A stretch of DNA of 64,000 bases from Candidatus Jettenia sp. Lineage in GTDB: Bacteria > Planctomycetota > Brocadiia > Brocadiales > Brocadiaceae. The notes beneath the pieces were generated by a model. The model was given only the letters and a program-made list of their open reading frames with translations, made no database searches and had not been told where the DNA came from. Below, piece by piece: positions 24,206 through 46,219 of this stretch; within the stretch, counting starts at the first letter, position 1; the number at the start of each line of letters is the position of its first letter. The position numbers and the translations under genes are program-made. The stretch lies in assembly GCA_021650895.1 (NCBI GenBank), contig CP091278.1, positions 1,703,659 through 1,767,658 on the forward strand, written 5' to 3'.

Positions 24206-25669
24206 TTATTTTAGTATGAGAATGGATTGCTGGGCTATTTCCATAATCTTCGATGGAAAGATACCCAGATGCAGAGTACCGATAACTGATAGAACTATAG
24301 CAACAACAATCAAGGGAGAGAGAGTAAGGGGATTAAAGTCTCTGGTAGGTTCTTTCATATACATAATAACCATAATTCGCAGGTAATAAAAAACGGAAAT
24401 GACAGAGTTTATCACACCAATAACAGCTAGCCCAATATACCCTGATTTTATGGCAGCACTGAAGATATAAAACTTTCCCACAAAGCCAGCAGTAGGTGGA
24501 ATACCTGCCATGGAAAGCATAAAGAGCGACATAGCCACGGCTAAACCAGGGTGTTTGAATCCTAATCCTGCAAAATCATGAATCTGTAGAAACTCATCAC
24601 CTTTTTGACTTACTATAATGACAACAGCAAGCGCCCCAATGTTCATAAACGTGTAAGCCAGGATATAGAACAATACACTAGACACACCCATATCGTTTGC
24701 AGCTACAAGTGCAATGAGAAGATAGCCTGCATGGGCAATACTGGAATACGCCAGCATACGTTTCAAGTTTGTTTGGGCAATAGCAACAACATTGCCGACA
24801 GTCATAGTCAACAATGCAAGGACATAAATAATCTTTTGCCATTCATAATGAGTAGATCCAAAAGCTGTCATAAGGATGCGTAAAAAGGCAGCGAAGGCAG
24901 CAGCCTTCGGTCCTACGGACATAAAGGCTGTTATGGTTGTAGGCGCACCCTCATAAACATCAGGCACCCATGCGTGAAACGGCACAGAAGCAACTTTGAA
25001 CCCAAGCCCAATGATTATTAATGCCATTCCCATAAGCAGCAAAGGATTTGAAATACTACCTTTATCTGCAATGAAGCCGGCGATTTGTTTCAGGTTAATA
25101 GCGCCTGTGGAACCATAAACAAGAGAAATACCGTACAACAAAAAGCCTGTGGCAAAGGCACCCAGTAAGAAATATTTTAAAGATGCCTCATTTGAAATGA
25201 GCTTTGAGCGTTTAAACCCTGTCAGGATATAAATACTAATAGACATGACCTCAAGTCCGATATAGATATTTAACAGGTCTGCACCGGATGCCATGAGCAT
25301 CATGCCTATTGTTGAGAATAAGATTAATGCATAATATTCTCCATGGTTAATCTCTTCGCGTTTTATGTAACTGTGCGAGATTAAGATAACAAGTCCTGTG
25401 CTAAGGAGAAAGATGAAGTTAAAAAATAGAGAATAATTATCGATTACAAAAGATTCATTAAATGAAAATAAAGTCGTTCCGGTAGAATTTCTCGCTAAGA
25501 TAGCTGCTACGATAATCCCCATGAGGGATAGATAAGCCAAAAGATTTTTTTCTCCCAATTTCCTTGAGGATAATATATCCACAATGAGAACAATCATGCC
25601 GAAACCTGCCAAAGTCAGGATTGGTAGAATACTGAGAATATTGAACGTCATTATCGAGACATTTGCCAT
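24206..25669 (-). CDS. nuoN: NADH-quinone oxidoreductase subunit N
   Basis: The 487-residue membrane protein has about 14 helices and is related to Mrp antiporters. It carries the conserved GLEVMSISIYILTGF segment with the key glutamate of helix 5, and VPFHAWVPDVYEGAPTTITAFM with the proton-channel lysine region following. NuoN is one of three proton-pumping subunits of complex I. It ends the nuo operon, 100 bases after nuoM. AAAGGT lies before the ATG; an internal ATG at 25651 is a weaker alternative. Confidence 0.95.
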   Translation of the reverse strand: MANVSIMTFNILSILPILTLAGFGMIVLIVDILSSRKLGEKNLLAYLSLMGIIVAAILARNSTGTTLFSFNESFVIDNYSLFFNFIFLLSTGLVILISHSYIKREEINHGEYYALILFSTIGMMLMASGADLLNIYIGLEVMSISIYILTGFKRSKLISNEASLKYFLLGAFATGFLLYGISLVYGSTGAINLKQIAGFIADKGSISNPLLLMGMALIIIGLGFKVASVPFHAWVPDVYEGAPTTITAFMSVGPKAAAFAAFLRILMTAFGSTHYEWQKIIYVLALLTMTVGNVVAIAQTNLKRMLAYSSIAHAGYLLIALVAANDMGVSSVLFYILAYTFMNIGALAVVIIVSQKGDEFLQIHDFAGLGFKHPGLAVAMSLFMLSMAGIPPTAGFVGKFYIFSAAIKSGYIGLAVIGVINSVISVFYYLRIMVIMYMKEPTRDFNPLTLSPLIVVAIVLSVIGTLHLGIFPSKIMEIAQQSILILK

Positions 25670-25769
25670 ATACCTTTACCTTATATAAGCCCTTTTATAT
25701 CTGGGTCTTTACCATAGCGAGAAACTTACATAGAAACCACAAAAGAATAAAGAACACAAAGAAATCAGT

Positions 25770-27353
25770 CTACCATTCTGTTTTGGTTTCAGAAATTATA
25801 TCAATCTTTGGCACAATATTTTGCTGTAATTGTTCAACTCTTTTCTGTCTTTGAGTATTAGACACAACGTTTGCCTTCTCTCCTACCTGTTTTAAAAGAT
25901 GATTTACGGATGCATCCATCTTTCTCAAGAAAGAATTAGGATAGATACCAATCCAAAAAATCAGGAAGACAATGGGAAGCAGGATAGCAAATTCACGCTT
26001 ATTCATATCTTTTAGTGTCTTGTTCTCTTCGTGGGTTATTTCATGAAACATAACCCTTTGAAACATCCAGAGCATATAAACGGCAGCAAGAATAATCCCC
26101 GATGCCGCAATAGATGCATACAGAATACGGGACTTAAACGTGCCCATCAGGATAAGAAACTCTCCTACAAAACCGTTTAATCCGGGTAATCCAATAGAGG
26201 ATAGGGTAACAACCAGAAAGAAAATAGCAAAGATGGGGATCTGTTTCGTCAAACCTCCAAAATCGGCAATCATCCGTGTGTGCCTTCTCTCGTAGAGCAT
26301 CCCAACTACAAGAAAAAGCGCCCCTGTACTGAGACCATGGTTAATCATTTGAGTAATACCACCCTCAATACCCTGGATATTAAAGGCAAAGATTCCGAGC
26401 ATAACAAAACCTAAATGGCTTACACTAGAGTAAGCAACGAGTTTTTTCAGATCATCTTGAACCATAGAAACCAAGGCACCATAGATAATGCCAACAATAG
26501 CCATCCATGATATCACAGGAATAAAAGCATGGCTTACCTCAGGGAATAAAGGTAAACAGAACCGTATAAAACCATATGTTCCCATTTTTAAGAGAACGCC
26601 TGCCAGGATTACACTTCCTGCCGTGGGCGCCTCCACATGGGCATCCGGTAACCATGTATGAAATGGAAACATGGGAACCTTGATAGCAAAAGCAAAGGAG
26701 AAAGCTATGAATAGCCAGAATTGGACGGCGAAGGAAATATCGAGCTTATATAATTCTAATAGATTAAAGGTATATTCGCCCGTTGCCCGGTAATTTAAAA
26801 AATAAAGGGCAATGATAGCCAAGAACATAAATACACTACCTGCTGTTGTGTAAATAAAGAACTTTACCGCGGCATAAATCCTTCTAGAACCTCCCCAGAT
26901 GCCGATGAGAAGATACATCGGAATCAGCATGAGCTCCCAGAATACAAAGAATAAAAATAGATCCAATGAGATAAACACACCTACCATAGCTGTCTCAAGG
27001 ATCAACATAGAAATCATGTATTCCTTTACATTCTTGGTAATATACCATGAAGCAAGAATGGAAATTGGTGTAAGAAAAGTTGTCAAAAGTATCAGAAAGA
27101 GGCTAATTCCATCTACTCCAACGTGATATTTGATTCCGAAGGAAGGTATCCACCGCAGTTTCTCAACAAACTGCATTTCATAGGTACGTGCATCGAAGTT
27201 AAAGTAGAGGGGAAGGGAAATCAAAAAAACCATTATCGCAACAAGCAGTGCTGTAAATCTGATAAGCTCCCGATTCTTTGAATCAATCGAAATGATAAAA
27301 AATACTCCTATAATCGGAAGAAAAGTGATTAATGAAAGAATCGGTACGGACAT
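25770..27353 (-). CDS. nuoM: NADH-quinone oxidoreductase subunit M
   Basis: The 527-residue antiporter-like subunit has about 14 helices. Diagnostic stretches are [35 protein letters not shown] (helix 5 glutamate) and [19 protein letters not shown]. It forms part of the membrane arm of complex I, next to NuoN and NuoL. A C-terminal hydrophilic tail of about 45 residues ([20 protein letters not shown]) is longer than in many homologues. GGAG lies 8 bases before the ATG. Confidence 0.95.
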
Positions 27354-27398
27354 CCCATCGCTCCAGAATTACAATTTTTGTAAGAAAAGAATACTATG

Positions 27399-29324
27399 CT
27401 ACTTACCTAATGCAGTAAGTACAATAACGAAGATACAGCCAAGCACGATGTAAAAGGCATAATTGCGTACATATCCTGTTTGTAAGAAACGCAGGATATC
27501 ACCAAACCGTCCGATAAGGCGAGCAACACCATTTACAGAACCATCAATTATTTGAGCATCTACACGCTTCCATAACATAACTGAAATTTTCTTAAGGGAT
27601 TTCACAAAAAGGATATCATACATTTCGTCCACATAATATTTATTGAGCAGAAGTTTGTAAATAAAACGAAACTGTTCTGCTAATCTTTTGGGCAATTCAG
27701 GTCTTTTTACATACAAATGATATGCTATAAATATACCCAGGATAGCAATGGCTGTTGAAATAATCATCATAAGATAAGGATGTCCTTCACTATGATGGAC
27801 ACCTGCTTCTAGTCCGGAAATCTCTGTATGTCCCTGTTCTCCAAAAACCGGCGCTAAAAAGTGACTCATGATATTCGCACCGGGGATGCCTAAAAATCCT
27901 CCAAGGGAGGAAAGCCCTGCTAGAACCATTAACGGGAACGTCATACTCTTTGGAGATTCATGGAGATGTTCCATGACATGGTGGTCTGCTCTTGATTTTC
28001 CGTGAAATGTTATAAACAGTAAGCGGAACATATAAAAAGCCGTAAAGAGGGATGTTACGCTTGCTATTGACCAATAGAAGAAATTCCCACGGGTAAGCGA
28101 TTCCAATACAATTTCATCCTTGCTGAAGAATCCTGCAAATGGCGGAATTCCTGCAATAGCAATAGTGCCAATCAAAAAGGTCTTATAGGTAATAGGAATA
28201 TGATGCCTGAGTCCACCCATCTTTCTCATATCTTGTTCCCCAGACATGGCATGAATAACACTGCCGGAGCCAAGAAATAGCAAAGCTTTAAAAAAGGCAT
28301 GCGTCATCAGATGAAAGATGCCTGCCGTAAATGCACCTACACCGCAAGCCAGAAACATATACCCAAGTTGACTAATCGTAGAATAGGCCAGCACACGCTT
28401 AATATCGTTCTGTACCAACCCTACGGATGCTGCAAAGAGCGCTGTAACTGCCCCTATACTGGCTACTATGGTCATGGTAAATGGAGATAACATATAGAGA
28501 ATATTGCATCGGGCAATCATGTAAACACCGGCAGTTACCATAGTTGCTGCGTGGATTAATGCGCTGACCGGCGTGGGGCCTTCCATAGCATCCGGCAGCC
28601 ATGTATACAGAGGTATTTGAGCTGACTTACCGGTTGCACCCATAAACAAAAGAAGGGTAATTATGGTTAAGGCGAAGCTACCGATTGCAAAGGTACCTTG
28701 CGATGCTGCATGAAATACCTCAGTAAAATCGATACTGCGGAAAGTGAGGAAGATGAGCATAATACCGAGGATAAATCCAAAATCACCTACTCGGTTAACA
28801 ATAAAGGCCTTCTTCGCTGCATTTGATGCTGACTTCTTATTATACCAGAACCCAATAAGCAGATATGAGCATAACCCGACTGCCTCCCAGCCAATAAACA
28901 TGAGAAGAAAATTGTTACCCAAAACAAGCAACAACATGGAAAAGGTAAATAAATTCAAATAGCAAAAATAGCGATGGTATCCCTTATCTTCATGCATATA
29001 GCCAATAGAATAGATGTGGATAAGGAATCCAACCCCGGTAACAATAAGGATCATGATTCCGGATAATGGATCCACCTGTAAACCTGCTGCTGCTTTGAAT
29101 GAACCGGATTCAATCCAGCTAAACAATTCTTTTTCGAATAACCGTTCATGGGGAGGAAGCAAAAGGAGTCCGCAAAACACAAGTATCGAAACAAGAAATG
29201 ATAAACCGATTGCCCCACAGGCAATATAGCCTACTGTTTCTTTCTTCAGCCTTTTACCAACAAGTCCGTTAATGGCTGTACCAATTAAAGGGAATAGCAA
29301 GATCAGTGCAACAAGGTTAAGCAT
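27399..29324 (-). CDS. nuoL: NADH-quinone oxidoreductase subunit L
   Basis: The 641-residue distal proton-pumping subunit of complex I has about 16 helices. It shows GWEAVGLCSYLLIGFW, TWLPDAMEGPTPVSALIHAATMVTAGVY and a long C-terminal region that would form the lateral helix along the membrane arm. I prefer the ATG at 29324, which has a GGTAGGT site upstream and aligns with the usual MLNLVALILLFPLIG start. An in-frame ATG at 29339 overlaps the nuoK stop. Confidence 0.95.
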   Translation of the reverse strand: MLNLVALILLFPLIGTAINGLVGKRLKKETVGYIACGAIGLSFLVSILVFCGLLLLPPHERLFEKELFSWIESGSFKAAAGLQVDPLSGIMILIVTGVGFLIHIYSIGYMHEDKGYHRYFCYLNLFTFSMLLLVLGNNFLLMFIGWEAVGLCSYLLIGFWYNKKSASNAAKKAFIVNRVGDFGFILGIMLIFLTFRSIDFTEVFHAASQGTFAIGSFALTIITLLLFMGATGKSAQIPLYTWLPDAMEGPTPVSALIHAATMVTAGVYMIARCNILYMLSPFTMTIVASIGAVTALFAASVGLVQNDIKRVLAYSTISQLGYMFLACGVGAFTAGIFHLMTHAFFKALLFLGSGSVIHAMSGEQDMRKMGGLRHHIPITYKTFLIGTIAIAGIPPFAGFFSKDEIVLESLTRGNFFYWSIASVTSLFTAFYMFRLLFITFHGKSRADHHVMEHLHESPKSMTFPLMVLAGLSSLGGFLGIPGANIMSHFLAPVFGEQGHTEISGLEAGVHHSEGHPYLMMIISTAIAILGIFIAYHLYVKRPELPKRLAEQFRFIYKLLLNKYYVDEMYDILFVKSLKKISVMLWKRVDAQIIDGSVNGVARLIGRFGDILRFLQTGYVRNYAFYIVLGCIFVIVLTALGK

Positions 29325-29332
29325 GCTGTTAC

Positions 29333-29635
29333 CTACCATTTCATGATGTTTATATCGTCAATATTTACCGTTTCTTTATTCCTGAATACAGCCACGATGA
29401 TTGCCAAACCGACTGCAGCCTCGGCTGCCGCAACTGTCATGGTAAAAAAAACAAATAGTTGGCCCTGCATAGAATTGAGGTAATGTGCACACGCAACAAA
29501 CGATATATTAACAGCATTCAGCATGAGTTCTATGCACATAAATATGATAATAGCATTCCTTCGTATTAACACACCAATGACACCTAACGTAAACAAGATC
29601 GCACTCAGTACCAGATAATGCGTTAATGTAATCAT
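29333..29635 (-). CDS. nuoK: NADH-quinone oxidoreductase subunit K
   Basis: The 100-residue protein has three helices ([55 protein letters not shown]). The two conserved membrane glutamates are in MCIELM and AAAEAAVGL. It belongs to the proton-translocation path at the root of the membrane arm. The gene directly follows nuoJ without a spacer and uses GAGG in the nuoJ end as ribosome-binding site. Confidence 0.96.
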
Positions 29636-30145
29636 TTATAATTTCCTCTTAGCTAACATAATTGCCCCAATAGCTGCCACAAAGAGCAAAATTGAAGTTA
29701 TTTCAAAGGGAAGGAGATAATCGGTGAATAACAAATTACCAATGAGTTTTGTGTTTCCGACACTAGTAACATAGGCGCTGGTATATTCACCTTGTTTTCC
29801 TTGCAGGAGTTTTGACTTTAAAATTATGCAGAGAACAGAAAAGAGTAAAATACCCATAAACAATGCAGGTATTTTTTGAAATGGTATTGCGTCTTTCAAT
29901 TCCTCTTTTACATTCAAACTTAACAACATTATCACGAAGAGGAAAAGAACCATAATAGCGCCTGCATACACAATAATCTGAACTGCAGCAATAAATTGTG
30001 CTTCGAGTAATATATAGAGTGCTGCAATGCTTACGAGTGTTAGTATAAGATACAAAGCACTGTAAACAGGATTCTTCTCGAAGATAAGATACACGGCTGC
30101 GGTCACAGAGACTGCAGCCATAATATAAAATATGTATGCTTCCAT
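29636..30145 (-). CDS. nuoJ: NADH-quinone oxidoreductase subunit J
   Basis: The 169-residue protein has five helices, including FIAAVQIIVYAGAIMVLFLFVIMLL with the conserved Tyr-Ala-Gly motif of helix 3. This motif is linked to conformational coupling in complex I. Length and helix pattern match NuoJ. It ends directly at the nuoK start and is preceded by nuoI with a 65-base gap. Confidence 0.95.
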   Translation of the reverse strand: MEAYIFYIMAAVSVTAAVYLIFEKNPVYSALYLILTLVSIAALYILLEAQFIAAVQIIVYAGAIMVLFLFVIMLLSLNVKEELKDAIPFQKIPALFMGILLFSVLCIILKSKLLQGKQGEYTSAYVTSVGNTKLIGNLLFTDYLLPFEITSILLFVAAIGAIMLAKRKL

Positions 30146-30210
30146 AATTATTTAGATATAAGTCAGGATAGAAAAGCTTCTCAATATTTTACCTTCACTA
30201 TCATGGCAGG

Positions 30211-30639
30211 TTAAAAACTTATTTTTCTTTTTTTCGTAAGATCTAATAATTGTTTTTTATCAAAAATATCCTTGTTTTGATATGTCGATAGTTCAAAGGT
30301 ATCTCTCAATATCACAGCCCTTACCGGGCATGCCTCTTCGCAAAACCCACAAAAAATACATCGGAAGGCATCTAACTCATACACTTCCGGATATCTTCTT
30401 TGTGTTGTTTTATCTGTTGCTCCTTCAACGGTAATGCATTTCGAGGGGCAAACTTTTGCACAAAGCCCGCATGCGATGCACCTTTCCCTGCCGTCTTTTC
30501 CTATCTGTAATTCCGGCAATCCCCGAAATCTTGAAGGAAGTTTCGGTCGTTCCTCCGGATACTGTTGAGTAACAACAGCATTTGGATTAAAAAACCGCTT
30601 GATAATAAGAATGAGGCCTTTTAGTAATGGTAAAATCAT
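30211..30639 (-). CDS. nuoI: NADH-quinone oxidoreductase subunit I (2x[4Fe-4S])
   Basis: The 142-residue ferredoxin-like subunit has the two cluster motifs CIACGLCAKVCPSKC (about 55-69) and CIFCGFCEEACPVRA (about 94-108) of clusters N6a and N6b. These pass electrons toward N2 in the hydrophilic arm. The N-terminal amphipathic segment would lie on the membrane against NuoH. AAAGGA within the end of nuoH precedes the ATG, and the genes are two bases apart. Confidence 0.95.
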   Translation of the reverse strand: MILPLLKGLILIIKRFFNPNAVVTQQYPEERPKLPSRFRGLPELQIGKDGRERCIACGLCAKVCPSKCITVEGATDKTTQRRYPEVYELDAFRCIFCGFCEEACPVRAVILRDTFELSTYQNKDIFDKKQLLDLTKKRKISF

Positions 30640-30641
30640 AA

Positions 30642-31637
30642 TTATCCTTTAATCACCATAACAAGGCCGGTAATAAGTATATTGAATAGCGAAAGAGGTA
30701 ATAAGAATTTCCAGCCAAAATGCATAAGTTGATCGTACCTGAGCCTTGGATACGTTGACCTTATCCAGATAAAGAAGAACAAACAACCTGATAGCTTCAA
30801 CATAAACCATACAACCGGCGGTAAAAACGGCCCCTGCCATCCGCCAAGGAAAAAAGTCACTGCAATGGCAGACACAGTGATCATATTGGCATATTCAGCC
30901 ATAAAAAACATAGCAAATTTCATACTGCTGTACTCTGTATGATAACCTGCCACAAGTTCTGATTCCGCCTCCGGAAGATCAAATGGGGTACGATTTACCT
31001 CTGCAAAAGCGCTCGTAACATAAATAAAAAACCCTATGGGCTGTAATATGATATTCCATATTTTTGCCTGAGCATTCACAATATCCACAAGGCTTAATGA
31101 ACCTGTTAACATAACAACTCCAATAAGAGATAAGCCGAGTGTCAACTCATAACTAATCATCTGGGCTGAAGACCGTATTCCACCCAGTAATGAATATTTA
31201 TTGTTCGATGCCCAACCAGCCATAACAACACCATAAACTCCCAGGGAAGAGACAGCAAAGATATAAAGAAATCCAACGTTGATGTCGGTGATGACAAGGT
31301 CTATGCTATATCCAAAAATTTTTATTTTATCCCCAAAAGGAATGACTGCAAAGGTGATTAAGGCGGGAACCAGAGTCATAATAGGCGCTAGCACAAAAAG
31401 AAATTTATTCGCTCTCTCTGGAATAATATCCTCTTTAAAGAGAAGTTTTATACCATCAGCAATTGGCTGTAATAATCCATGCGGCCCAACACGCATCGGC
31501 CCAAGACGGACCTGCATATGCGCCATAATCTTCCTCTCAAACCAGATCATGGAGATAACCATAAACTGGATCATGCCAAATACAATAAAGATCTTAATAC
31601 AGGTAATGGTAAGATAAATAAGGAGCTCTTTATTCAT
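30642..31637 (-). CDS. nuoH: NADH-quinone oxidoreductase subunit H
   Basis: The 331-residue membrane subunit is the anchor of the quinone chamber. Signatures include HMQVRLGPMRVGPHGLLQPIADGIKLLFKED, AEVNRTPFDLPEAESELVAGYHTEYS and PRLRYDQLMHFGWKFLLPLS. I chose the ATG at 31637, which gives the usual start MNKELLIYL and overlaps the end of the preceding desulforedoxin gene by eight bases. A longer in-frame start at 31676 adds an unusual KECIVKRPLII segment. Confidence 0.95.
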   Translation of the reverse strand: MNKELLIYLTITCIKIFIVFGMIQFMVISMIWFERKIMAHMQVRLGPMRVGPHGLLQPIADGIKLLFKEDIIPERANKFLFVLAPIMTLVPALITFAVIPFGDKIKIFGYSIDLVITDINVGFLYIFAVSSLGVYGVVMAGWASNNKYSLLGGIRSSAQMISYELTLGLSLIGVVMLTGSLSLVDIVNAQAKIWNIILQPIGFFIYVTSAFAEVNRTPFDLPEAESELVAGYHTEYSSMKFAMFFMAEYANMITVSAIAVTFFLGGWQGPFLPPVVWFMLKLSGCLFFFIWIRSTYPRLRYDQLMHFGWKFLLPLSLFNILITGLVMVIKG

Positions 31638-31917
31638 TATAATCAGGGGCCTCTTCACGATGCATTCTTTGACCACAGCATTCTAATATACCTGTTGTCT
31701 CTTCAATAACCTTTATCTTCTGTTTACATACGTTGCATACAAAAGTTACTCCGTTTGCCGGTTTATGATGCGCTGCTGTCCAGGTTGCCATCATTCCTTT
31801 GACCCCTACAAGATTCATTTCTTTACCACAACATACCAGCACGCCAAAACCCTCTTCGATAACAACGACTTTTTGTCTGCAAATTTCGCAAAAATATGTT
31901 TGTTCTTTTTTTGCCAT
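31630..31917 (-). CDS. Tandem desulforedoxin protein inside the complex I operon
   Basis: The 95-residue protein consists of two copies of the desulforedoxin motif C-x2-C-x15-C-C: Cys10, 13, 29, 30 and Cys61, 64, 80, 81. A linker containing His50-His51 joins them. D. gigas desulforedoxin is a 36-residue homodimer with one Fe(SCys)4 site per chain; here two modules are joined covalently. Each should bind iron (or zinc). I take MAKKEQ as the start; a TTG further upstream would add a hydrophobic ILFILISGCC stretch. It lies between nuoG and nuoH and overlaps nuoH by eight bases, so it is translated with complex I. It is not a standard subunit; redox, iron-donor or assembly roles are possible. Confidence 0.85.
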   Translation of the reverse strand: MAKKEQTYFCEICRQKVVVIEEGFGVLVCCGKEMNLVGVKGMMATWTAAHHKPANGVTFVCNVCKQKIKVIEETTGILECCGQRMHREEAPDYNE

Positions 31918-32021
31918 ACAGCAACCACTGATCAATATAAATAAAATCAACTGAGAAGACGTCCCGGTGGAGCGTCTTTACCATAATAATATTATTCTCT
32001 TGCGATCTCTATTTTAGGGAA

Positions 32022-34673
32022 TTATATCTGTCCGGTTTCTTTATAAATTTTGACAGGAGTATATACTCCTGTACGCACAAGATTGATCGGTATCCACTCG
32101 TAATCCTCAGAGACAAAAACTATGCCTTCGGGCGATTTATCGGCAACCTTTGCCTTGAGTGTTATCTTATTCTTGCTTGATTCAATAACTACCGCATCCC
32201 CATCATGAATATTCATTTTCTGGGCATCTTTTCTATTCATTTCTGCAAAACATTCAGGAGAAACCGATACAAGGGCATTTGAGTACCTGGAGAAGGTTCC
32301 TTGATGATTCAAACTCACACCTGTCAATAACACAAAAGGAAAATCTTTATTCTGTTTTATCTCCAAAGATTCAGGCTGAACAATGTTTAAGAGGCATTTT
32401 ACTGATTTATTTCTACTACCAGATACGGAAGATGCCCAATAAAATTCTTTTCTCTTCAAACGATCGTAATTAATACCCGAATAGATAGGAACCACACTTT
32501 CTATTTCACTCAGAATATCTTTTGGAGATACATATGAATACGAATACCCCATCTTTTTGGCAAGTTCACAAATGATTTGCCAATCTGGTTTGGCATCCAC
32601 TCCGGAAGGCTGTATGACCTTATTCAGCCGCTGCACCGTCATCCCCATATTAGTAAACGTGCCTTCCTTTTCAGCAAAGGTAACCGTAGGAAGAACGACA
32701 TCTGCCAATTGCGCAGTTTCTGTTAGAAACACATCCTGAACAACAGTAAAACCCGTCTTTTGGAATGCTTCGAGTACTTCCTTACCATTTGGATAACTTA
32801 CCAGGGGATTTTCTCCCATGATATAGAGGCCTTTTAATGCACCATTCCGCGCAAGTTCAAAAATATTCTTAGACTCTCTCATGAAGATATCGTCGGAAAA
32901 TTTTACTCCCCATAGCTTCTCTATGTTCTCTCTATTGGACACATCGCTGGTAGTACTATATCCTGGGAAAAATTCCGGCACTACCCCCATATCATTTACA
33001 CCCTGGGAGTTATTATGGGAACGCGAGAATAAAAGTGAAGCCTTGCTGTGATCCGTATCCGGGTTAGATGTATTCATCAATACACAAAGGTTCATCAAGG
33101 CTTTTATGGTATCACGATTCAAAGGATCTTCTTCCACGTCTCTCCCGCAGACAATACAACAATTCCCCGATTTTGTTAGTAATCGCGCTGTAGTCCTCAT
33201 CATCTCTTCAGAAATACCGGTTACTTGAGAAGCTTCCTTTACGCTGAACGTATCGAATGCCAAATGTAATTCATGGAAATTGCTTATCGATGATTCTGCC
33301 TTTTTTAAATCAATAAGTTTTTCATCAAAAATGATCTTAATCAGGGCATGAATGAATAGTATTTGACTACCGAAGGAATAGGTCAAACGAATATCATTTT
33401 TAGCAGTACCACTAAATGAAATATTTCGTATATTAGCGATAATAAGATTGGCATTGTTCATCCTCATAGCTTTTCTGGCCATAGTTCCGGCCACAGGATG
33501 AGCCTCTGTCATATCTGTGCCAAAAAAGAATAATGTATTCGCATGTTCTATCTCTTTCAATGATGTTGACGCAATTCCGCGAATAACAGATTCATATATG
33601 AGACTATTTAGGGAGGGTGATCTTAAATTGGATAGATTATCTACGATATTCGTCCTTAATACAGACCTGCAGAATTTCTGGAAAAGATAATTATCCTCAT
33701 TCGTGCATTTTTCAGAACCAATACCTCCGATAGCCTTTCCTCCGTGTTCATTTATAATTTGTTGGAATCTCTTTGAGATATATTCAAGTGCCTCGTCCCA
33801 GGAGGACGGATGGAATGCACCATCTTTCTTTATTAAAGGAGTTTTTAAACGTTCTGCTGAGTGTATGAATTCATGGCCGAACCTGCCTTTTATGCAAAGG
33901 TTACCTTCGTTTATCCCTATGTGATCGTCCGATGTTACCCGTCTCACGCTTCCACTTTTCGTATTTAAAACGACCGTACATCCAACCGCACAGTAAGGAC
34001 ATATCGTCTGAGTCTTTTTGAATTCCCATGGTCTTCCCCTGAATTCGAGCGTTCTATCTTGCCAGGATCCCGTTGGGCATACCGCTAAACAACCACCGCA
34101 AAAGCTACAATCCAATGGCTTGTCAAAAGCAGTGCCGATATATGTCTTGATGCCACGTTTTTGGAAATCAATAGCACCGACCCCTTCTATCTCTTTACAG
34201 GCACTCACACATCGCCCGCACAAAACACAACGATTTCGATTTAATTCTAAAATTGGATTATCACGAACGACAGGGGCATTCATCCTTACCGCATTAAACC
34301 GGCTGGGAGATAGCGTTAACTCATGAGTAATATCCTGCAGACTACATTCACCTGCTTTATCGCACGTCGGACAGGAAAGCTCATGATGGGCTAATAAATA
34401 CTCCATAACTGACCTTCGATACCGAACTACTTTTGGCGTATTTACTTTTACAATCATCCCTTCAGAAACAGGATGGGCACACGCAAATCGATGCGCTGTC
34501 CTTCTCTCGGTAACTTCTACCATACAGAGCCTGCAGCCACCAAATTGTGAAAGTTTCGGATGATAGCACAAGCCAGGGATATAAATACCGTTATCCAGCG
34601 ATGCCTGAAATATATTAGTACCTTCAGGAACAGTAATTGTTTTATCGTCTACAATAAGATTAATCATCTTCAT
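32022..34673 (-). CDS. nuoG: NADH-quinone oxidoreductase subunit G, formate dehydrogenase-like
   Basis: The 883-residue protein binds many Fe-S clusters. The [2Fe-2S] cluster N1b uses Cys36/47/50/65 and the His-Cys3 cluster uses the HHELSCPTCDKAGEC region (about 96-110). A ferredoxin-like pair follows (Cys149/152/155/159 and Cys189/192/195/199), then a further [4Fe-4S] site CPYCAVGC (225-232) with Cys260. The molybdopterin-type domain follows and closes with a C-terminal beta-barrel. At the place where formate dehydrogenases carry the Cys or Sec metal ligand the sequence reads NLRSPSLNSL (about 349-358), so it should not bind molybdenum catalytically. It overlaps nuoF by four bases. Confidence 0.93.
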   Translation of the reverse strand: MKMINLIVDDKTITVPEGTNIFQASLDNGIYIPGLCYHPKLSQFGGCRLCMVEVTERRTAHRFACAHPVSEGMIVKVNTPKVVRYRRSVMEYLLAHHELSCPTCDKAGECSLQDITHELTLSPSRFNAVRMNAPVVRDNPILELNRNRCVLCGRCVSACKEIEGVGAIDFQKRGIKTYIGTAFDKPLDCSFCGGCLAVCPTGSWQDRTLEFRGRPWEFKKTQTICPYCAVGCTVVLNTKSGSVRRVTSDDHIGINEGNLCIKGRFGHEFIHSAERLKTPLIKKDGAFHPSSWDEALEYISKRFQQIINEHGGKAIGGIGSEKCTNEDNYLFQKFCRSVLRTNIVDNLSNLRSPSLNSLIYESVIRGIASTSLKEIEHANTLFFFGTDMTEAHPVAGTMARKAMRMNNANLIIANIRNISFSGTAKNDIRLTYSFGSQILFIHALIKIIFDEKLIDLKKAESSISNFHELHLAFDTFSVKEASQVTGISEEMMRTTARLLTKSGNCCIVCGRDVEEDPLNRDTIKALMNLCVLMNTSNPDTDHSKASLLFSRSHNNSQGVNDMGVVPEFFPGYSTTSDVSNRENIEKLWGVKFSDDIFMRESKNIFELARNGALKGLYIMGENPLVSYPNGKEVLEAFQKTGFTVVQDVFLTETAQLADVVLPTVTFAEKEGTFTNMGMTVQRLNKVIQPSGVDAKPDWQIICELAKKMGYSYSYVSPKDILSEIESVVPIYSGINYDRLKRKEFYWASSVSGSRNKSVKCLLNIVQPESLEIKQNKDFPFVLLTGVSLNHQGTFSRYSNALVSVSPECFAEMNRKDAQKMNIHDGDAVVIESSKNKITLKAKVADKSPEGIVFVSEDYEWIPINLVRTGVYTPVKIYKETGQI

Positions 34674-36520
34674 TTGATTGCCATGAAATTACATTTTTCG
34701 TAACATAAATTACACTTAATACATTTTTCCTGGTGAATAAAAGCAACTTCCTTTGTATTACCGCTGATTGCCTTTACAGGACAATTACGAATACATGCCT
34801 GGCATTTTGTGCACTTTTCCGGAATAACCTCATACTTATGAAGGCCAACACAGGTAGCGGTAGGACATATTCTATCGCGAATATGAGCAATGTATTCATC
34901 CTTAAAATACCGGAGTGTCGATTTAACAGGATTAGGGGCAGATTGTCCAAGACCGCACAGTGACATTGTCCTGATCTCATCGCACATCTGCTCTAATACC
35001 TCCAGGTCTTTTTCTTCCCCTCTTCCTTGTGTAATACGGGTAAGGATATCCAACATAAGGGTTGTACCAATCCTGCAAGGTGGACATTTTCCACAAGATT
35101 CGCTTGCACAAAAATTCATAAAGAATCGGGCCATCTCGACCATACATGTAGTTTCATCAACGACTACAAAACTGCCAGAACCCATCATCGCACCTGCCCC
35201 AACTAACGATTCGTAATCTATAGGCGAATCCAATAAAGACTCGGGTAAGCATCCACCGGATGGACCTCCAATCTGCACAGCTTTAAACCGTTTCTTTTTA
35301 GGAATTCCACCACCCATATCAAACACAATCTGCCGAACGGTAGTGCCCATAGGAACCTCAACAAGGCCTGCATTTTTTATTTTTCCTGTCAGAGAAAAGA
35401 TTTTCGTTCCTTTACTTTTTTCTGTACCGATCTTCGAGTACCAGTCAGCGCCCTGATTAATAATAAACGGTACATTGGCAAAGGTCTCCACATTATTTAA
35501 CACCGTGGGCTTATCCCATAAGCCTGCCTCCACGGATTGCGGAGGTCTCGTGCGTGGCATACCTCGTTTACCCTCAATAGAGTTCTGCAGTGAAGTCGAT
35601 TCGCCGCAAACAAAAGCACCAGCGCCCTCTTTTATATAAATATCTAAACTATACCCACTGTTTAATATATTCTTTCCCAGGAAACCATACTTCTGTGCTT
35701 GTTCAATAGTATGTTTTAATCTTCTCACAGCCAAAGGATATTCAGCACGAACGTAAATATAGCCACCCGTAGCATTAATTGTATATCCGGCAATGATCAT
35801 ACCCTCTAAAACAGCATGGGGATCTCCCTCAAGAAGACTCCTATCCATAAAAGCACCCGGGTCACCTTCGTCGGCATTACAAAGGACAAACTTTTCATCC
35901 GCAGAATATTTAGCACAAGATGCCCATTTTTCCCCTGTAGGGAAGCCGCCACCTCCCCGACCCCTAAGACCTGATTTGCTTATTTCATTGATTACGTCCT
36001 TGGGGGTCATTGTTTTCAGTATCTTTTTAAGCGCTGTATATCCTCCGGTTGCGATATATTCCTCAATACTGTCCGGGTCGATATACCCACAATTTCTGAG
36101 GATGAATTTTCTCTGGCCTTTATTTATTTCAAGATCTTCAAAGAATGGTAAGCCGTCGTAAGGAATATCGATTTTATCGTTTAAATACATCTGTGATAAA
36201 ACGAATTTTTTTACTGCTTCTCCCTTTCCTACGTGTTCCTCTATAATCTGCGGAACCATAGTATTTTTTACACTTCCATAGGTAACACGCGTACGGCTCG
36301 GAAAAATTACATCCACGAGCACTTCATGGGTACACATACCAATACAACCTGTACGTATAATTTCTGCTTGTAACTTCTGCTTCTCTAACTCTTGTTCAAT
36401 ACGAGCAAGTACACCTTTTGCACCAGCGCCTAAACCACAGGTAGCCATACCAATGAATATTTTTGGCTTCTGCGTATTCCCTTTTTTTTGTAAAATATCT
36501 TTTACTTCTTCACTAGCCAT
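34670..36520 (-). CDS. nuoF: NADH-quinone oxidoreductase subunit F with extra ferredoxin domains
   Basis: The 616-residue flavoprotein has an N-terminal thioredoxin-like [2Fe-2S]-type domain (CGLGAGAKGV, GCIGMC), where only three of the usual four cysteines are clear. The FMN/NADH core follows (GRGGGGFPTGEKW; CNADEGDPGAFMDRSLLEGD). The N3 cluster motif is ESCGKCPPCRIGT, and a C-terminal two-cluster ferredoxin (CTKCQACIRNCPVKAI, CIKCNLCYEKCNFMAI) ends the protein. This architecture, longer than E. coli NuoF, resembles HydB/NADH-dependent hydrogenase or formate dehydrogenase flavoproteins. It oxidises NADH at the tip of complex I, and the extra clusters might accept electrons from ferredoxin. 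Confidence 0.93.
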   Translation of the reverse strand: MASEEVKDILQKKGNTQKPKIFIGMATCGLGAGAKGVLARIEQELEKQKLQAEIIRTGCIGMCTHEVLVDVIFPSRTRVTYGSVKNTMVPQIIEEHVGKGEAVKKFVLSQMYLNDKIDIPYDGLPFFEDLEINKGQRKFILRNCGYIDPDSIEEYIATGGYTALKKILKTMTPKDVINEISKSGLRGRGGGGFPTGEKWASCAKYSADEKFVLCNADEGDPGAFMDRSLLEGDPHAVLEGMIIAGYTINATGGYIYVRAEYPLAVRRLKHTIEQAQKYGFLGKNILNSGYSLDIYIKEGAGAFVCGESTSLQNSIEGKRGMPRTRPPQSVEAGLWDKPTVLNNVETFANVPFIINQGADWYSKIGTEKSKGTKIFSLTGKIKNAGLVEVPMGTTVRQIVFDMGGGIPKKKRFKAVQIGGPSGGCLPESLLDSPIDYESLVGAGAMMGSGSFVVVDETTCMVEMARFFMNFCASESCGKCPPCRIGTTLMLDILTRITQGRGEEKDLEVLEQMCDEIRTMSLCGLGQSAPNPVKSTLRYFKDEYIAHIRDRICPTATCVGLHKYEVIPEKCTKCQACIRNCPVKAISGNTKEVAFIHQEKCIKCNLCYEKCNFMAIK

Positions 36521-36522
36521 GA

Positions 36523-37032
36523 TTATTGAGAAAATCCTGATTCCTTTATTTCTTTTATAACATTAGCAACCGTATCCGAGGCTAACTTTCCATGAACATT
36601 CTCGTCTACCATCATAACAGGCGCTAATGAGCATGCCCCCAGACACGCCACTTCTTCAAGAGTAAACACCTTATCCTTCGTAGTCATACCAAGCGAGACA
36701 TCCAATGTTTCACTAAGTTTTTCTGCGATCTTTTTAGCCCCTTTCACATGACAGGCAGTTCCACAACAAACCTTTATGATATGCTGCCCACGTGGTATCA
36801 GGTGAAATTGGGCATAAAAGGTAGCAACTCCGACTATTTCGCTTGCGCTGATATTCAACCTTTCTGAGATAAGGTCGATAGCAGGAGCAGGTAAATAACC
36901 AAATTCTGTCTGTACCATTTGCAAAATCGGGATTAAAGCACCTTTCACGTTCTTGTATTTCTCTACTGCCTTTTCGACTTTCGAAAGATCTATTGCTTCT
37001 CCCTGTATAGATTTTTCGTTTGTTGTATTCAT
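36523..37032 (-). CDS. nuoE: NADH-quinone oxidoreductase subunit E ([2Fe-2S])
   Basis: The 169-residue thioredoxin-like subunit has the N1a cluster ligands in KVCCGTACHVKGA and ACLGACSLAPVM. The helical N-terminal part GALIPILQMVQTEFGYLP is typical. It pairs with NuoF at the NADH end of the enzyme. nuoF follows after two bases. No clear Shine-Dalgarno sequence precedes the ATG. Confidence 0.95.
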   Translation of the reverse strand: MNTTNEKSIQGEAIDLSKVEKAVEKYKNVKGALIPILQMVQTEFGYLPAPAIDLISERLNISASEIVGVATFYAQFHLIPRGQHIIKVCCGTACHVKGAKKIAEKLSETLDVSLGMTTKDKVFTLEEVACLGACSLAPVMMVDENVHGKLASDTVANVIKEIKESGFSQ

Positions 37033-37097
37033 TGAGTATTTTATTGTATCGAAATTTAAATAATTTGTAAAATAATTCTAGTGTTTAGTTCCGGTTT

Positions 37098-38282
37098 TCA
37101 GCGATCGATTTCTCCCAATACAATATCTAAACTTCCGATTGTAGCAACAACATCCGGAAGTAATCTGCCCTCCACCATTTTCGGCAACGCTTCAAGATTA
37201 ACGAAAGACGGCGGACGGATTTTTAGACGATAAGGATTGCTGGAACCATCACTGATAATATAAAAACCTAGCTCACCTTTTGGGGCTTCAATACTGGCAT
37301 ATACCTCTCCCTTCGGAGGACGGATACCTTGAATGATTAATTTAAAATGATGAATCATGGCCTCCATCTTTGTTTCTACATCCTCTTTCGGAGGCAAGGT
37401 AACATTGGGTATACTCGCCATAATATCTCCCTTAGGAAGGATATTGATAGCCTGATGAACGATGCTGTTACTCTGCCGCATCTCTTCGATGCGTACACGA
37501 TACCGATCATAGACATCTCCGTTTTCACCCAGAGGAACCGCAAAATGATATTTATCATAGCGGGAATAGGGATCTGTCTTTCTGATATCCCAGTTAACTC
37601 CCGATCCTCTTAAACTTGGACCACTGAGTCCATAATCGATAGCATCTTCAGCAGAAATAATACCGACACCAACTGTGCGCTTTTTCCATATAGGATTATC
37701 GGTAAGAAGTGTCTCATACTCCTTAAGCCGAGAGGGAAATTCAGCAACAAATTTTCGGGTCTTTTCCAGAAATCCACCAGGTAGCTCCTTCGCTACACCT
37801 CCTATCCGTATATATGAAAGATGAAGCCGGGCACCTGAAACCATTTCAAAGATATCGTAGATTGCCTCACGCTCCCTAAAGCAATAGAAGAATACAGTCA
37901 TAGCACCGATATCCAACGCATGGGTTGCCAGCCATAAGAGATGAGAAGCAATCCGGGTAAGTTCACAGAGAAGTACACGGATATGCTGAGCCCTTTCCGG
38001 AATATCAATACCAAGCAATTTCTCAACAGCAAGGGCATACGCTAAATTATTTGAAAAAGGAGCTACATAATCCAACCTATCGGTAAGAGGAATGCATTGA
38101 TGATAAGTTCGATACTCAGCAAGTTTCTCCACACCTCGGTGAAGAAATCCAATATGAGGCGTAGCTTTTATAATCATTTCACCATCAAGCTCCAGCAATA
38201 ATCTTAATACACCATGAGTGCTGGGGTGTTGAGGACCCATATTGATGGTCATCAGATGTGTTGTTGTAGCAGAACTTTCCAT
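37098..38282 (-). CDS. nuoD: NADH-quinone oxidoreductase subunit D (49 kDa-type)
   Basis: The 394-residue protein is related to the large subunit of NiFe hydrogenases. It shows INMGPQHPSTHGVLRLLLELDGE (the HP-STHG quinone-site loop), FLHRGVEKL, LTRIASHLLWL and APKGELGFYIISDGS. The metal-ligating cysteines of hydrogenases are absent, as expected. The preferred ATG at 38282 shares TGATG with the nuoC stop; a GTG at 38285 is in frame too. NuoD and NuoC are separate proteins here, unlike the fused E. coli NuoCD. Confidence 0.95.
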   Translation of the reverse strand: MESSATTTHLMTINMGPQHPSTHGVLRLLLELDGEMIIKATPHIGFLHRGVEKLAEYRTYHQCIPLTDRLDYVAPFSNNLAYALAVEKLLGIDIPERAQHIRVLLCELTRIASHLLWLATHALDIGAMTVFFYCFREREAIYDIFEMVSGARLHLSYIRIGGVAKELPGGFLEKTRKFVAEFPSRLKEYETLLTDNPIWKKRTVGVGIISAEDAIDYGLSGPSLRGSGVNWDIRKTDPYSRYDKYHFAVPLGENGDVYDRYRVRIEEMRQSNSIVHQAINILPKGDIMASIPNVTLPPKEDVETKMEAMIHHFKLIIQGIRPPKGEVYASIEAPKGELGFYIISDGSSNPYRLKIRPPSFVNLEALPKMVEGRLLPDVVATIGSLDIVLGEIDR

Positions 38283-38782
38283 CACTCTTTACCCTTTCGG
38301 TAGGTATCATAGAGTGCGGGGGGCTGCCTCCCATCGATGGGGTAATCCTTTCTTAAGGGATATCCCTCAAAATCTTCGGGCGTAAGGATCTTTCTCAGGT
38401 CAGGGTGACCGGTAAATTTAATCCCAAACATATCGTACGTTTCTCGCTCATGCCAATTGGCCGTCTTCCAGACATTTGTTACCGTTGGTATGGACAGTTC
38501 ATTTGATGGAATTGGCACTTTGAGACGTACACGATGATTTTTATCTATCGAATAGAGATGGTAAACTACCTCAAAAATACCGTCTGTCTCAACTCGGTCA
38601 ACACCGCACAAATCCGATAAAAAATTAAAATGAAGTTCTTTATCTTCTTTAAGAAACCTTGCGACCTGGACAATAAATTCCTTTTTTATAGTAAGGGTTA
38701 ACTCATTACGAAATGTGCTTGAATCTATAATCGCCTGGGGAAAATTCGATTTTATCGCTGTAGCTATAAACTCAGTATCCAT
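38282..38782 (-). CDS. nuoC: NADH-quinone oxidoreductase subunit C (30 kDa-type)
   Basis: The 166-residue protein has the family signature NWHERETYDMFGIKFTGHPDLRKILTPEDFEGYPLRKDYP near the C-terminus. It belongs to the quinone-reducing module of the peripheral arm. GAGGAAA precedes the ATG. A 109-base gap separates it from nuoB, the longest gap in the operon together with that before nuoG's downstream neighbour; no promoter is obvious there. Confidence 0.95.
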   Translation of the reverse strand: MDTEFIATAIKSNFPQAIIDSSTFRNELTLTIKKEFIVQVARFLKEDKELHFNFLSDLCGVDRVETDGIFEVVYHLYSIDKNHRVRLKVPIPSNELSIPTVTNVWKTANWHERETYDMFGIKFTGHPDLRKILTPEDFEGYPLRKDYPIDGRQPPALYDTYRKGKE

Positions 38783-38891
38783 GTTTCCTCGTCGTAAATC
38801 TTTTGATCCATCGATGCTATCCTACATAAACTAAATTCTATAGCTAAGCAAATTCTTAATACTCTATTTACAGGATTCATTGTATCCTGGC

Positions 38892-39359
38892 TCATAACGA
38901 TTCTTTCTCGATCTTTTTTTGTATTTCCATAATGGCATGGATTAATGCTTCTGGTCTTGGTGGACATCCCGGAAGATACACATCCACAGGTAGAATCTGA
39001 TCTACGCCTTGTACAACACTGTAAGTATTATATACACCTCCCGATACTGCACAGGCACCCATAGCAATAACCCATTTAGGTTCTGGCATCTGATCATAAA
39101 TCTTTCTTGCTACAGATGCCATCTTGTACGTAAGCGTCCCTGCAACAATCATCAAATCTGATTGCCTTGGTGAAAATCTAAATACCTCCGCCCCAAACCG
39201 CGCAAGATCATAACGAGGCGCAACTGCCGCCATCATTTCTAAGGCACAACAAGCTAATCCAAAAGGCATAGGCCAAAGAGAGGATTTACGAGCCCAGTTT
39301 ATCATCGTACTTAAAGTGGTAGTTAGGATGTTATCGCCCAGCTGGCCTTCTATTCCCAT
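38892..39359 (-). CDS. nuoB: NADH-quinone oxidoreductase subunit B (cluster N2)
   Basis: The 155-residue subunit carries the terminal [4Fe-4S] cluster N2. Its ligands are the tandem cysteines in [11 protein letters not shown] plus those in GACAVSGG and [12 protein letters not shown] chose the ATG at 39359, ten bases before the nuoA stop and with GAGGTGGG five bases upstream. An in-frame ATG at 39380 would add seven residues. It docks between NuoD and NuoI. Confidence 0.95.
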
Positions 39360-39703
39360 TCCAACCCACCTCTTTTCCATATATAAAGATAACAGATAAA
39401 TAAAATACCTATAAAGATTACCATTTCAATAAATCCAAACAGCTTCAATGACTGAAACGCTACTGCCCATGGATAGAGAAAAACAACTTCAATATCAAAA
39501 ATAACAAATATCATTGCAATAAGATAAAATTTTACAGAAAAACGCTCGCGAGCGGATCCTACCGGATCAATACCACACTCATACGGTGTGAGTTTTTCTG
39601 CAGTAGGTTTCTGCGTCCCAAAAATAGCAGAAAGCATTACATTCGTAATGGCAAAACCTAAAGCTATTATAAATAATATCAGTATAGGTAAGTACTCTAC
39701 CAT
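39350..39703 (-). CDS. nuoA: NADH-quinone oxidoreductase subunit A
   Basis: The 117-residue three-helix subunit has the conserved loop [20 protein letters not shown] and the second-helix signature [16 protein letters not shown]. It is the first gene of the 14-gene nuo operon. A near-consensus promoter lies so close that the predicted transcript would begin within a few bases of the ATG, and no Shine-Dalgarno sequence is present, so translation may be leaderless. The 3' end overlaps nuoB. Confidence 0.95.
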
Positions 39704-44912: not shown

Positions 44913-44986
44913 GCGCCCATAGCTCAATTGGATAGAGTCACGGACTACGAATCCGGAGGTTGGAGGTTCAAATCCTCCTGGGCGCG
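44913..44986 (+). tRNA. tRNA-Arg (anticodon ACG)
   Basis: The acceptor stem is GCGCCCA/TGGGCGC and the D stem GCTC/GAGT. The anticodon loop CTACGAA gives anticodon ACG, and the T arm is GGAGG-TTCAAAT-CCTCC. CCA is not encoded. The A34 of this tRNA is the substrate of TadA, whose gene follows 77 bases downstream. The terminal base pair 27-43 of the anticodon stem is a mismatch. Confidence 0.93.
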
Positions 44987-45063
44987 TTTTTCATTATTAT
45001 AATTATCGGCGAAACATAGGTATGTTGAGTACCTGCGGAAAGTTTGTGCAGCATCTATAAATT

Positions 45064-45534
45064 ATGGAAGATATTACAAGCAAACATGAATATTTTATGA
45101 GGCAGGCCCTTGCCGAGGCGAGAAAGGCTGTAGAAAAAGATGAAGTGCCAATCGGAGCTGTGATTGTTTATGAAAACCACATAATAGCTCGTGCACATAA
45201 TCAGCGAGAAATGCTCAACGATCCTACTGCTCATGCGGAAATGATAGCAATAACTCAAGCTGCCGCATATTTACAAAACTGGCGTTTAACAGGAACAACC
45301 ATCTATGTAACTTTGGAACCTTGTGCAATGTGCGCTGGCGCTTTAGTGCAATCGAGGATTGATACCCTTGTTTATGGAACTACAGATAAAAAGGCCGGGG
45401 CTTGTGCATCGGTTATCAATCTTGTTCAGGAACCGAGGTTTAACCATCGTTTGAATGTTCTGTCAAATGTCCTTGCCGATGAATGTAAACATATATTGCA
45501 AAAATTCTTTTTAGAAAACTGCCGTACGAAATAA
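45064..45534 (+). CDS. tadA: tRNA-specific adenosine deaminase
   Basis: The 156-residue zinc deaminase has the catalytic HAE motif (His57, Glu59 in TAHAEMIAI) and the zinc ligands Cys87 and Cys90 in LEPCAMCAG. NWRLTGTTIYVTLEPC is typical of TadA rather than of guanine or cytosine deaminases. It converts A34 to inosine in tRNA-Arg(ACG), which allows reading of CGU, CGC and CGA codons. That tRNA gene lies just upstream on the same strand. No strong Shine-Dalgarno sequence is seen before the ATG. Confidence 0.93.
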   Translation: MEDITSKHEYFMRQALAEARKAVEKDEVPIGAVIVYENHIIARAHNQREMLNDPTAHAEMIAITQAAAYLQNWRLTGTTIYVTLEPCAMCAGALVQSRIDTLVYGTTDKKAGACASVINLVQEPRFNHRLNVLSNVLADECKHILQKFFLENCRTK

Positions 45535-45554
45535 CGAGGCAATTTTTACCTATA

Positions 45555-45646
45555 GGAGAGGTGCCAGAGTGGTTGATCGGGACGGTCTCGAAAACCGTTT
45601 CCCGCTTAAAAGCGGGACGTGGGTTCGAATCCCACCCTCTCCGCCA
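45555..45646 (+). tRNA. tRNA-Ser (anticodon CGA)
   Basis: The acceptor stem is GGAGAGG/CCTCTCC, followed by G and an encoded CCA. The anticodon stem-loop ACGGT-CTCGAAA-ACCGT gives CGA. A long variable arm (CCCGCTTAAAAGCGGG) marks a class II tRNA, and GGGTTCGAATCCC is the T arm. Confidence 0.95.
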
Positions 45647-45840
45647 GTTAATAATTGAGAATTAAGGAATCATTAATTATAATTAAAAATAACTATTCCT
45701 TACGACACGTTATTGCGGTTCCGCTCTTTTATGAACTATAGCTCTTTGGAGAAGTATGTATGTAAAAAAGTATCACGTACATACGCTGTAAGAAATTTTT
45801 GAAGCCTTGTTTCACGATACTATCATTCATGTGTTGTTTT

Positions 45841-45933
45841 GGAGAGGTGTCAGAGAGGCCGAATGAGCGCGCTTGGAAAGCGCGTATACCGACAAAATCG
45901 GTATCGCGGGTTCGACTCCCGCCCTCTCCGCCA
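45841..45933 (+). tRNA. tRNA-Ser (anticodon GGA)
   Basis: The acceptor stem is GGAGAGG/CCTCTCC with an encoded CCA. The anticodon stem-loop CGCGC-TTGGAAA-GCGCG gives GGA. The long variable arm TACCGACAAAATCGGTA and the T arm GCGGGTTCGACTCCCGC confirm tRNA-Ser. Confidence 0.95.
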
Positions 45934-45947
45934 TATTAATACTAAAA

Positions 45948-46219
45948 GGCCGTGCTAGATGGGGAGCTAGCGGTACCCTGTAACCTGCAACCCGCTATAG
46001 CAGGATCGATCGCTTTTTTGAGGGCTCACAGACTGTTAGCTTTATCAATGTAAGGGGTGTTGAAGGCTGGATCTCATGCAATAAGAGACGCTGCGAACCT
46101 GGTCAGATGCGGAAGCAAGCAGCCATAAGCATTTGTCCTTATGTGCCGTGAGCAAGTCTGGCCTGAGCCTACTGCATTGGTAAACTAATGGAAACGGGAA
46201 CAAAAAAAAGTGCACGGCC
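45948..46219 (+). ncRNA. ffs: Large bacterial SRP RNA (with Alu domain)
   Basis: The ends GGCCGTGC and GCACGGCC pair. The 5' part (GGGGAGCTAGCGGTACCCTGTAACC) carries the Alu-domain loops with the UGUAA motif. The centre of the 3' half, ACCTGGTCAGATGCGGAAGCAAGCAGCC, is the conserved SRP54-binding helix 8 (given here from 46099 on). At about 270 bases it is the long Bacillus-type RNA rather than the 4.5S form. A T-run follows the closing helix. The gene lies directly before dnaX. Confidence 0.92.

Follow-up and report, generated by a model that had tools for sequence, protein, structure and literature searches.

Between nuoG and nuoH, the complex I operon of a Candidatus Jettenia bacterium carries a gene for a tandem desulforedoxin, here called dDSX, which is a double variant within the known desulforedoxin domain family. 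The gene is an open reading frame of 95 residues on the minus strand at 31630-31917 of the window, the whole 64-kb stretch of DNA that was analysed, with its ATG at 31917 and a TAA stop at 31632-31630. Its assignment is based on the reading frame and its motifs, on two matched stretches each for PF06397 and TIGR00319, and on orthologues. Both cysteine motifs, CEICRQKVVVIEEGFGVLVCC and CNVCKQKIKVIEETTGILECC, follow the pattern C-x2-C-x15-CC exactly, and no further motif of this kind, even singly, was found in any other frame of the 64-kb window. The N-terminal module comprises residues 8-34 (31816-31896; C10, C13, C29 and C30), supported by its identity to Desulfovibrio gigas desulforedoxin, and the C-terminal module residues 59-85 (31663-31743; C61, C64, C80 and C81), supported by alignment with 1dxg_A. 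The linker between them, residues 35-58 (31744-31815), was taken from the alignment of orthologues. All three lie on the minus strand, as does nuoH (30642-31637), which begins with MNKELLIYL at ATG 31637 and overlaps dDSX by 8 nt at 31630-31637; the nuoG stop at 32022 lies 104 nt upstream of dDSX. A preliminary description of this DNA had reported, with no strand given, two exact modules in one 95-residue chain and a position between nuoG and nuoH with an 8-nt overlap. The former was borne out by motif search, Pfam and NCBIfam, the latter by the coordinates in the host.

The operon is complete, nuoABCDEFG-dDSX-HIJKLMN, at 24206-39703 on the minus strand, with the reading frames named by homology and NuoE, NuoF and NuoG by Pfam. 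The scan detected no terminator between nuoG and dDSX, and promoter-like sites in the same interval were not above chance. Upstream lie nuoG (32022-34673, minus strand), a molybdopterin-oxidoreductase-type large subunit (PF00384, PF04879, PF10588, PF22117), and nuoF (34670-36520, minus strand; PF01512, PF10589), with a C-terminal Fer4 dicluster domain at 564-612. Because of this extra dicluster in NuoF and the molybdopterin-oxidoreductase type of NuoG, the NADH arm (32022-36520) resembles bifurcating or formate-dehydrogenase-like enzymes. Elsewhere in the window, the plus strand has a cluster of RNA genes at 44913-46217, comprising tRNA-Arg, two copies of tRNA-Ser and a bacterial SRP RNA of the large type. 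The host genome is a single contig of 3.82 Mb in which dDSX is the sole desulforedoxin-domain gene. It also encodes three rubredoxins and one superoxide reductase, as well as a distant homologue of the rubredoxin-reductase-like flavoprotein described below. The closest public matches came from Candidatus Jettenia ecosi, with whose genome the host is congeneric, and from other Brocadiaceae.

Score, cysteine pattern and fold all place dDSX in the desulforedoxin domain family (PF06397/TIGR00319). It matched Pfam Desulfoferrod_N (PF06397) with 57.8 bits (cut-off 23, E 8e-16) and NCBIfam TIGR00319 with 48.8 bits (cut-off 36.05, E 4e-13), each in two stretches; zinc-binding families were matched in the Pfam scan as well, every one below threshold. 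Among solved structures, desulforedoxin and the desulfoferrodoxin N-terminal domain come nearest. With D. gigas desulforedoxin (1DXG), the C-x2-C-x15-CC spacing is identical, and 17 of 27 residues are shared in the N-terminal and 13 of 27 in the C-terminal module. The D. gigas protein is a homodimer of 36-residue chains with one module each, whereas in dDSX a conserved linker of 24 residues connects two modules. The centre I domain of 2Fe superoxide reductase, or desulfoferrodoxin (1VZG, 2JI1), belongs to the same domain family and was matched by the PDB profile search with an E-value of about 1e-7 at profile positions 1-44. Where desulfoferrodoxin has its PF01880 superoxide reductase domain, dDSX has the second desulforedoxin module. 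The Pfam scan of dDSX gave no match to this catalytic domain with its Fe(His)4Cys site, and TIGR00320 reached only 36.8 bits, far under its cut-off of 146.9; a superoxide reductase was rejected on these grounds.

An AlphaFold2 model computed from 16 sequences had a mean pLDDT of 66 and a pTM of 0.56 and was confident inside the modules only, the linker (pLDDT below 50 at residues 41-48) and the relative placement of the modules being of low confidence. The modelled C-terminal module could be superimposed on 1dxg_A over 35 residues with an rmsd of 1.6 Å and a Z score of 2.8, and no other chain reached a Z score of 2. Foldseek gave a TMt of 0.82 and a probability of 0.98 against desulforedoxin, yet an E-value of 0.5, and structural matches other than desulforedoxin and desulfoferrodoxin were judged not meaningful. 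That dDSX would be a single-chain version of the desulforedoxin dimer, its modules facing each other as in 1DXG, is a fair hypothesis. In another planctomycete, an 86-residue chain (L099:1645-1905) contains two PF06397 stretches, as dDSX does, but differs from it by a short linker, a longer cysteine spacing, a thioredoxin-reductase-like neighbour and a position away from nuo; it is unrelated to dDSX. On that contig (1345-1905), a single and this independent tandem desulforedoxin gene adjoin the thioredoxin-reductase-like gene. No paper pairing desulforedoxin with anammox, or dealing with tandem desulforedoxins, was found in a search of literature available without subscription.

The distribution of dDSX was surveyed in 60 Brocadiales genomes, host included, in which family f1 corresponds to Brocadiaceae, as judged from members with names, and f4 by inference only to Scalinduaceae. 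Full-length dDSX was present in 41 genomes, 29 of f1 and 12 of f4, and in 37 of these it lies within the nuo operon (29/29 in f1, 8/12 in f4), i.e. adjoining nuoG, nuoH or both as far as the contigs reach. The search of related nuo operons for the gene between nuoG and nuoH, which the preliminary description had proposed, found it across Brocadiaceae and in a large part of a second family of anammox bacteria. In f1, dDSX was present at every intact nuoG-nuoH junction that was seen; of the four f1 genomes without the gene, each either lacks a full-length nuoH of this type or has its nuo genes at contig ends only. Strong full-length matches were confined to f1 and f4 among 392 evenly drawn Planctomycetota genomes, and a wide contig search, covering close relatives only, returned Brocadiaceae or planctomycete MAGs. 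Genomes of f2 and f5 (G033, G036, G037, G039, G040, G042, G043 and G049), families without dDSX, encode the hydrazine synthase alpha domain (PF18582), so dDSX was discarded as a marker of all anammox bacteria. In f5, a closely related nuo operon is present and there is no desulforedoxin domain at all. One contig (L003:8507-9562, shared with L020 and L062) contains, downstream of an intact dDSX, a second copy reduced to the C-terminal module, preceded by an inserted frame of 238 residues that is PDZ-like in appearance.

An alignment of 21 sequences shows no variation at any of the eight cysteines, nor at V37, M42, M43, W46, T47, P53 and G56 of the linker. The N-terminal module is the most conserved part, with 16 of 27 invariant columns, compared to 11 of 27 in the C-terminal module and 7 of 24 in the linker. 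Overall, the level of conservation is about that of NuoI. The gene is under purifying selection, with dN/dS values of 0.04-0.12 in comparisons with other genera, and a chance or spurious reading frame is excluded by these values and by the orthologues.

Between lineages, the spacing of dDSX and nuoH varied over a range of -8 to +646 nt. Jettenia, Brocadia, Kuenenia-like genomes and some others have values of -8 to +3; the spacing is 138 in G012 and 56 to 646 in several genomes of genus g9; in f4 it is about 0 to 90, values that are slight overestimates as the alignment starts a few codons inside nuoH. Two contigs contain a PIN-domain-like toxin gene and a likely antitoxin between dDSX and nuoH (L007:5801-6460, L008:10273-10914), and in the Kuenenia-like G011 a HicAB-like pair separates nuoG from dDSX (L047:5238-6521), all named by eye. 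The 8-nt overlap had been taken to imply that dDSX is made in step with complex I. As the essential feature the overlap was not supported, since it is missing from many orthologues and toxin-antitoxin-like genes may intervene. Translational coupling to nuoH was thus dropped as a conserved feature; since the spacing varies, what is conserved is presence in the operon. In Kuenenia transcriptomics, nuo D, E, F, G, L and N correspond to KSMBR1 2471-2474, 2482 and 2485 (PMC7438415). By this numbering, the interval from nuoG to nuoL holds more genes than H, I, J and K account for, a gap that dDSX and the HicAB-like pair would fill.

Four of the 41 genomes, all in f4 (G038, G041, G056 and G058), have dDSX outside nuo. 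There it stands directly behind a flavoprotein similar to NADH:rubredoxin reductase, which combines the domains Pyr_redox_2 and Rubredoxin_C. After dDSX come a fusion of rubredoxin-like and desulforedoxin domains, two rubrerythrins and a one-module desulforedoxin, and a TAT superoxide reductase is encoded upstream of the cluster. All genes of the set were read in G038 and G041, whereas in G056 and G058 the reading covered the motif pattern and the flavoprotein; two overlapping reading frames take the place of the fusion gene in G041. In G038, G041 and G058, nuoG and nuoH are kept, 91-178 nt apart, with no space for dDSX. No nuoH was found in G056, the genome of which is 79% complete, and a full dDSX match is absent from G057 (86% complete). 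Sister genomes of f4 have the cluster of flavoprotein, fusion and rubrerythrins without dDSX, and dDSX in nuo. In the NuoH tree, the four genomes together with G057 form one clade (100/100) inside f4 genomes with nuo-located dDSX, and in the dDSX tree the moved copies are united with a support of 100/99, next to nuo-located copies of congeneric genomes. This amounts to a single move of dDSX, into a pathway of rubredoxin-type carriers. The nuo position is the older and the other derived, because f1 and the early-branching f4 genus g20 share the former. On the stem of the moved clade, the branch length was 0.31 for dDSX and 0.15 for NuoH, about twice, and the corresponding ratios were similar or larger on other branches. 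As the stem ratio is not above that of several other branches, no loss of constraint upon relocation is visible. The fusion gene, which joins a rubredoxin domain of the rubrerythrin type to a desulforedoxin domain, is a conserved downstream neighbour of the flavoprotein in f4 (L102:3216-3458, L106-L112). In L055 (4328-5701), the C-terminal end of the rubredoxin-reductase-like flavoprotein is a zinc-ribbon domain similar to LysW, which scored under the Pfam cut-off.

We tentatively propose, with a likelihood that we place a little short of even, that dDSX would be a cytoplasmic one-electron carrier of the rubredoxin class, with two Fe(Cys)4 sites per chain, which protects against oxygen; the gene, its fold family, the conserved cysteines, the place in the operon and the relocation are established from the sequences, and iron, redox activity, partners and direction of electron flow are inferred. 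The argument for a carrier is that the neighbours of the moved gene form a familiar chain of NADH/rubredoxin type. The match of both modules to the desulforedoxin domain and the independent tandem desulforedoxin next to a thioredoxin-reductase-like gene in another planctomycete also count in its favour. The chain of NADH:rubredoxin oxidoreductase, rubredoxin and flavodiiron protein or superoxide reductase is of the Clostridium acetobutylicum type, and the four genomes place dDSX at a comparable point, between the reductase-like flavoprotein and the rubredoxin-desulforedoxin/rubrerythrin set. Unlike in that chain, the carrier is a double desulforedoxin instead of a rubredoxin, and its gene mostly lies in the complex I operon. 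dDSX would accept single electrons from NADH-oxidising flavoproteins and hand them to iron proteins that reduce oxygen or radicals, i.e. flavodiiron proteins, rubrerythrins and superoxide reductase. This transfer could shield oxygen-sensitive Fe-S enzymes, of which complex I would be the nearest. In most anammox bacteria, dDSX would be made from the complex I operon, its amount thereby tracking the NADH module, and in one lineage the gene has been transferred to the operon of an NADH:rubredoxin reductase. Read parsimoniously, the old nuo position may reflect a partnership with the NADH module. A flow from NADH via Nror and rubredoxin to superoxide reductase or flavodiiron protein has been proposed for anammox bacteria (PMC10156729; PMC13253579). 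Of the functions offered in the preliminary description, electron carrying and oxygen protection gained support, and the evidence spoke neither for nor against Fe-S assembly.

Neighbouring genes are an association and not an interaction, and several points speak against the carrier. The nuo position is conserved in two families, which points to a role bound up with complex I, one that would be superfluous for a general carrier, and related families with hydrazine synthase do without dDSX. As the only rubredoxin-type carrier of the cell, dDSX was rejected in view of the three rubredoxins of the host, which likewise weigh against a general carrier. A strict tie to superoxide reductase was rejected as well, as the Pfam search detected no PF01880 in three genomes that have dDSX, two of Jettenia and one relative (G001, G002 and G012).

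The main rival to the carrier is a bound subunit, i.e. a lineage-specific accessory protein on the peripheral arm of complex I near NuoG/NuoH, serving as an extra redox site or a structural clamp. It would account for the constant place of dDSX between nuoG and nuoH (37 of 41 genomes, with every one of those from Brocadiaceae), for its overlapping or nearly touching nuoH in many lineages and for a conservation like that of NuoI, and the invariant linker motif MM..WT resembles a putative binding surface. We nevertheless consider it unlikely, as three genomes have nuo without dDSX, which is then found among oxygen-defence enzymes, and as f5, with its closely related nuo, lacks desulforedoxins altogether. 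dDSX is thus not always encoded with complex I. It is a long-conserved partner of complex I, yet no obligatory subunit: the four genomes with the moved gene contradict an obligatory tie, and three of them keep the nuo operon without it and have dDSX elsewhere.

Both iron and zinc can be bound by the desulforedoxin fold in vitro, and dDSX could be a zinc protein whose role is structural or regulatory only, as the Pfam matches to zinc-binding families might indicate. Those matches all remain below cut-off, however, compared to 57.8 bits against a cut-off of 23 for the desulforedoxin model, and the relocated gene adjoins rubredoxin and rubrerythrin genes; we hold a zinc protein to be improbable. 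Least probable is a factor for assembly or repair of the Fe-S clusters of complex I, to which it would supply iron or electrons, an option that would suit the iron-type cysteine sites, a position for co-expression within nuo and, as repair of oxidative damage, the move to a rubrerythrin operon, but Fe-S assembly genes were not seen adjoining dDSX in either setting and we know of no desulforedoxin domain that acts as an assembly factor.

Returning to the electron carrier, a bolder version, to which we assign only a small chance, would have anammox complex I carry or dock a two-iron carrier that discharges electrons of the NADH module singly to oxygen- or NO-reducing proteins and that was later re-plumbed to NADH:rubredoxin reductase in one lineage. 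If true, complex I would have a safety outlet built into it. Few bacterial operons are as uniform as those of complex I, and a foreign gene of redox type kept in them across two families is unusual. Its natural relocation offers a ready comparison between lineages. A link between complex I and oxygen defence through dDSX, if real, would be relevant to the oxygen tolerance of some anammox bacteria and to the handling of NADH in anammox energetics.
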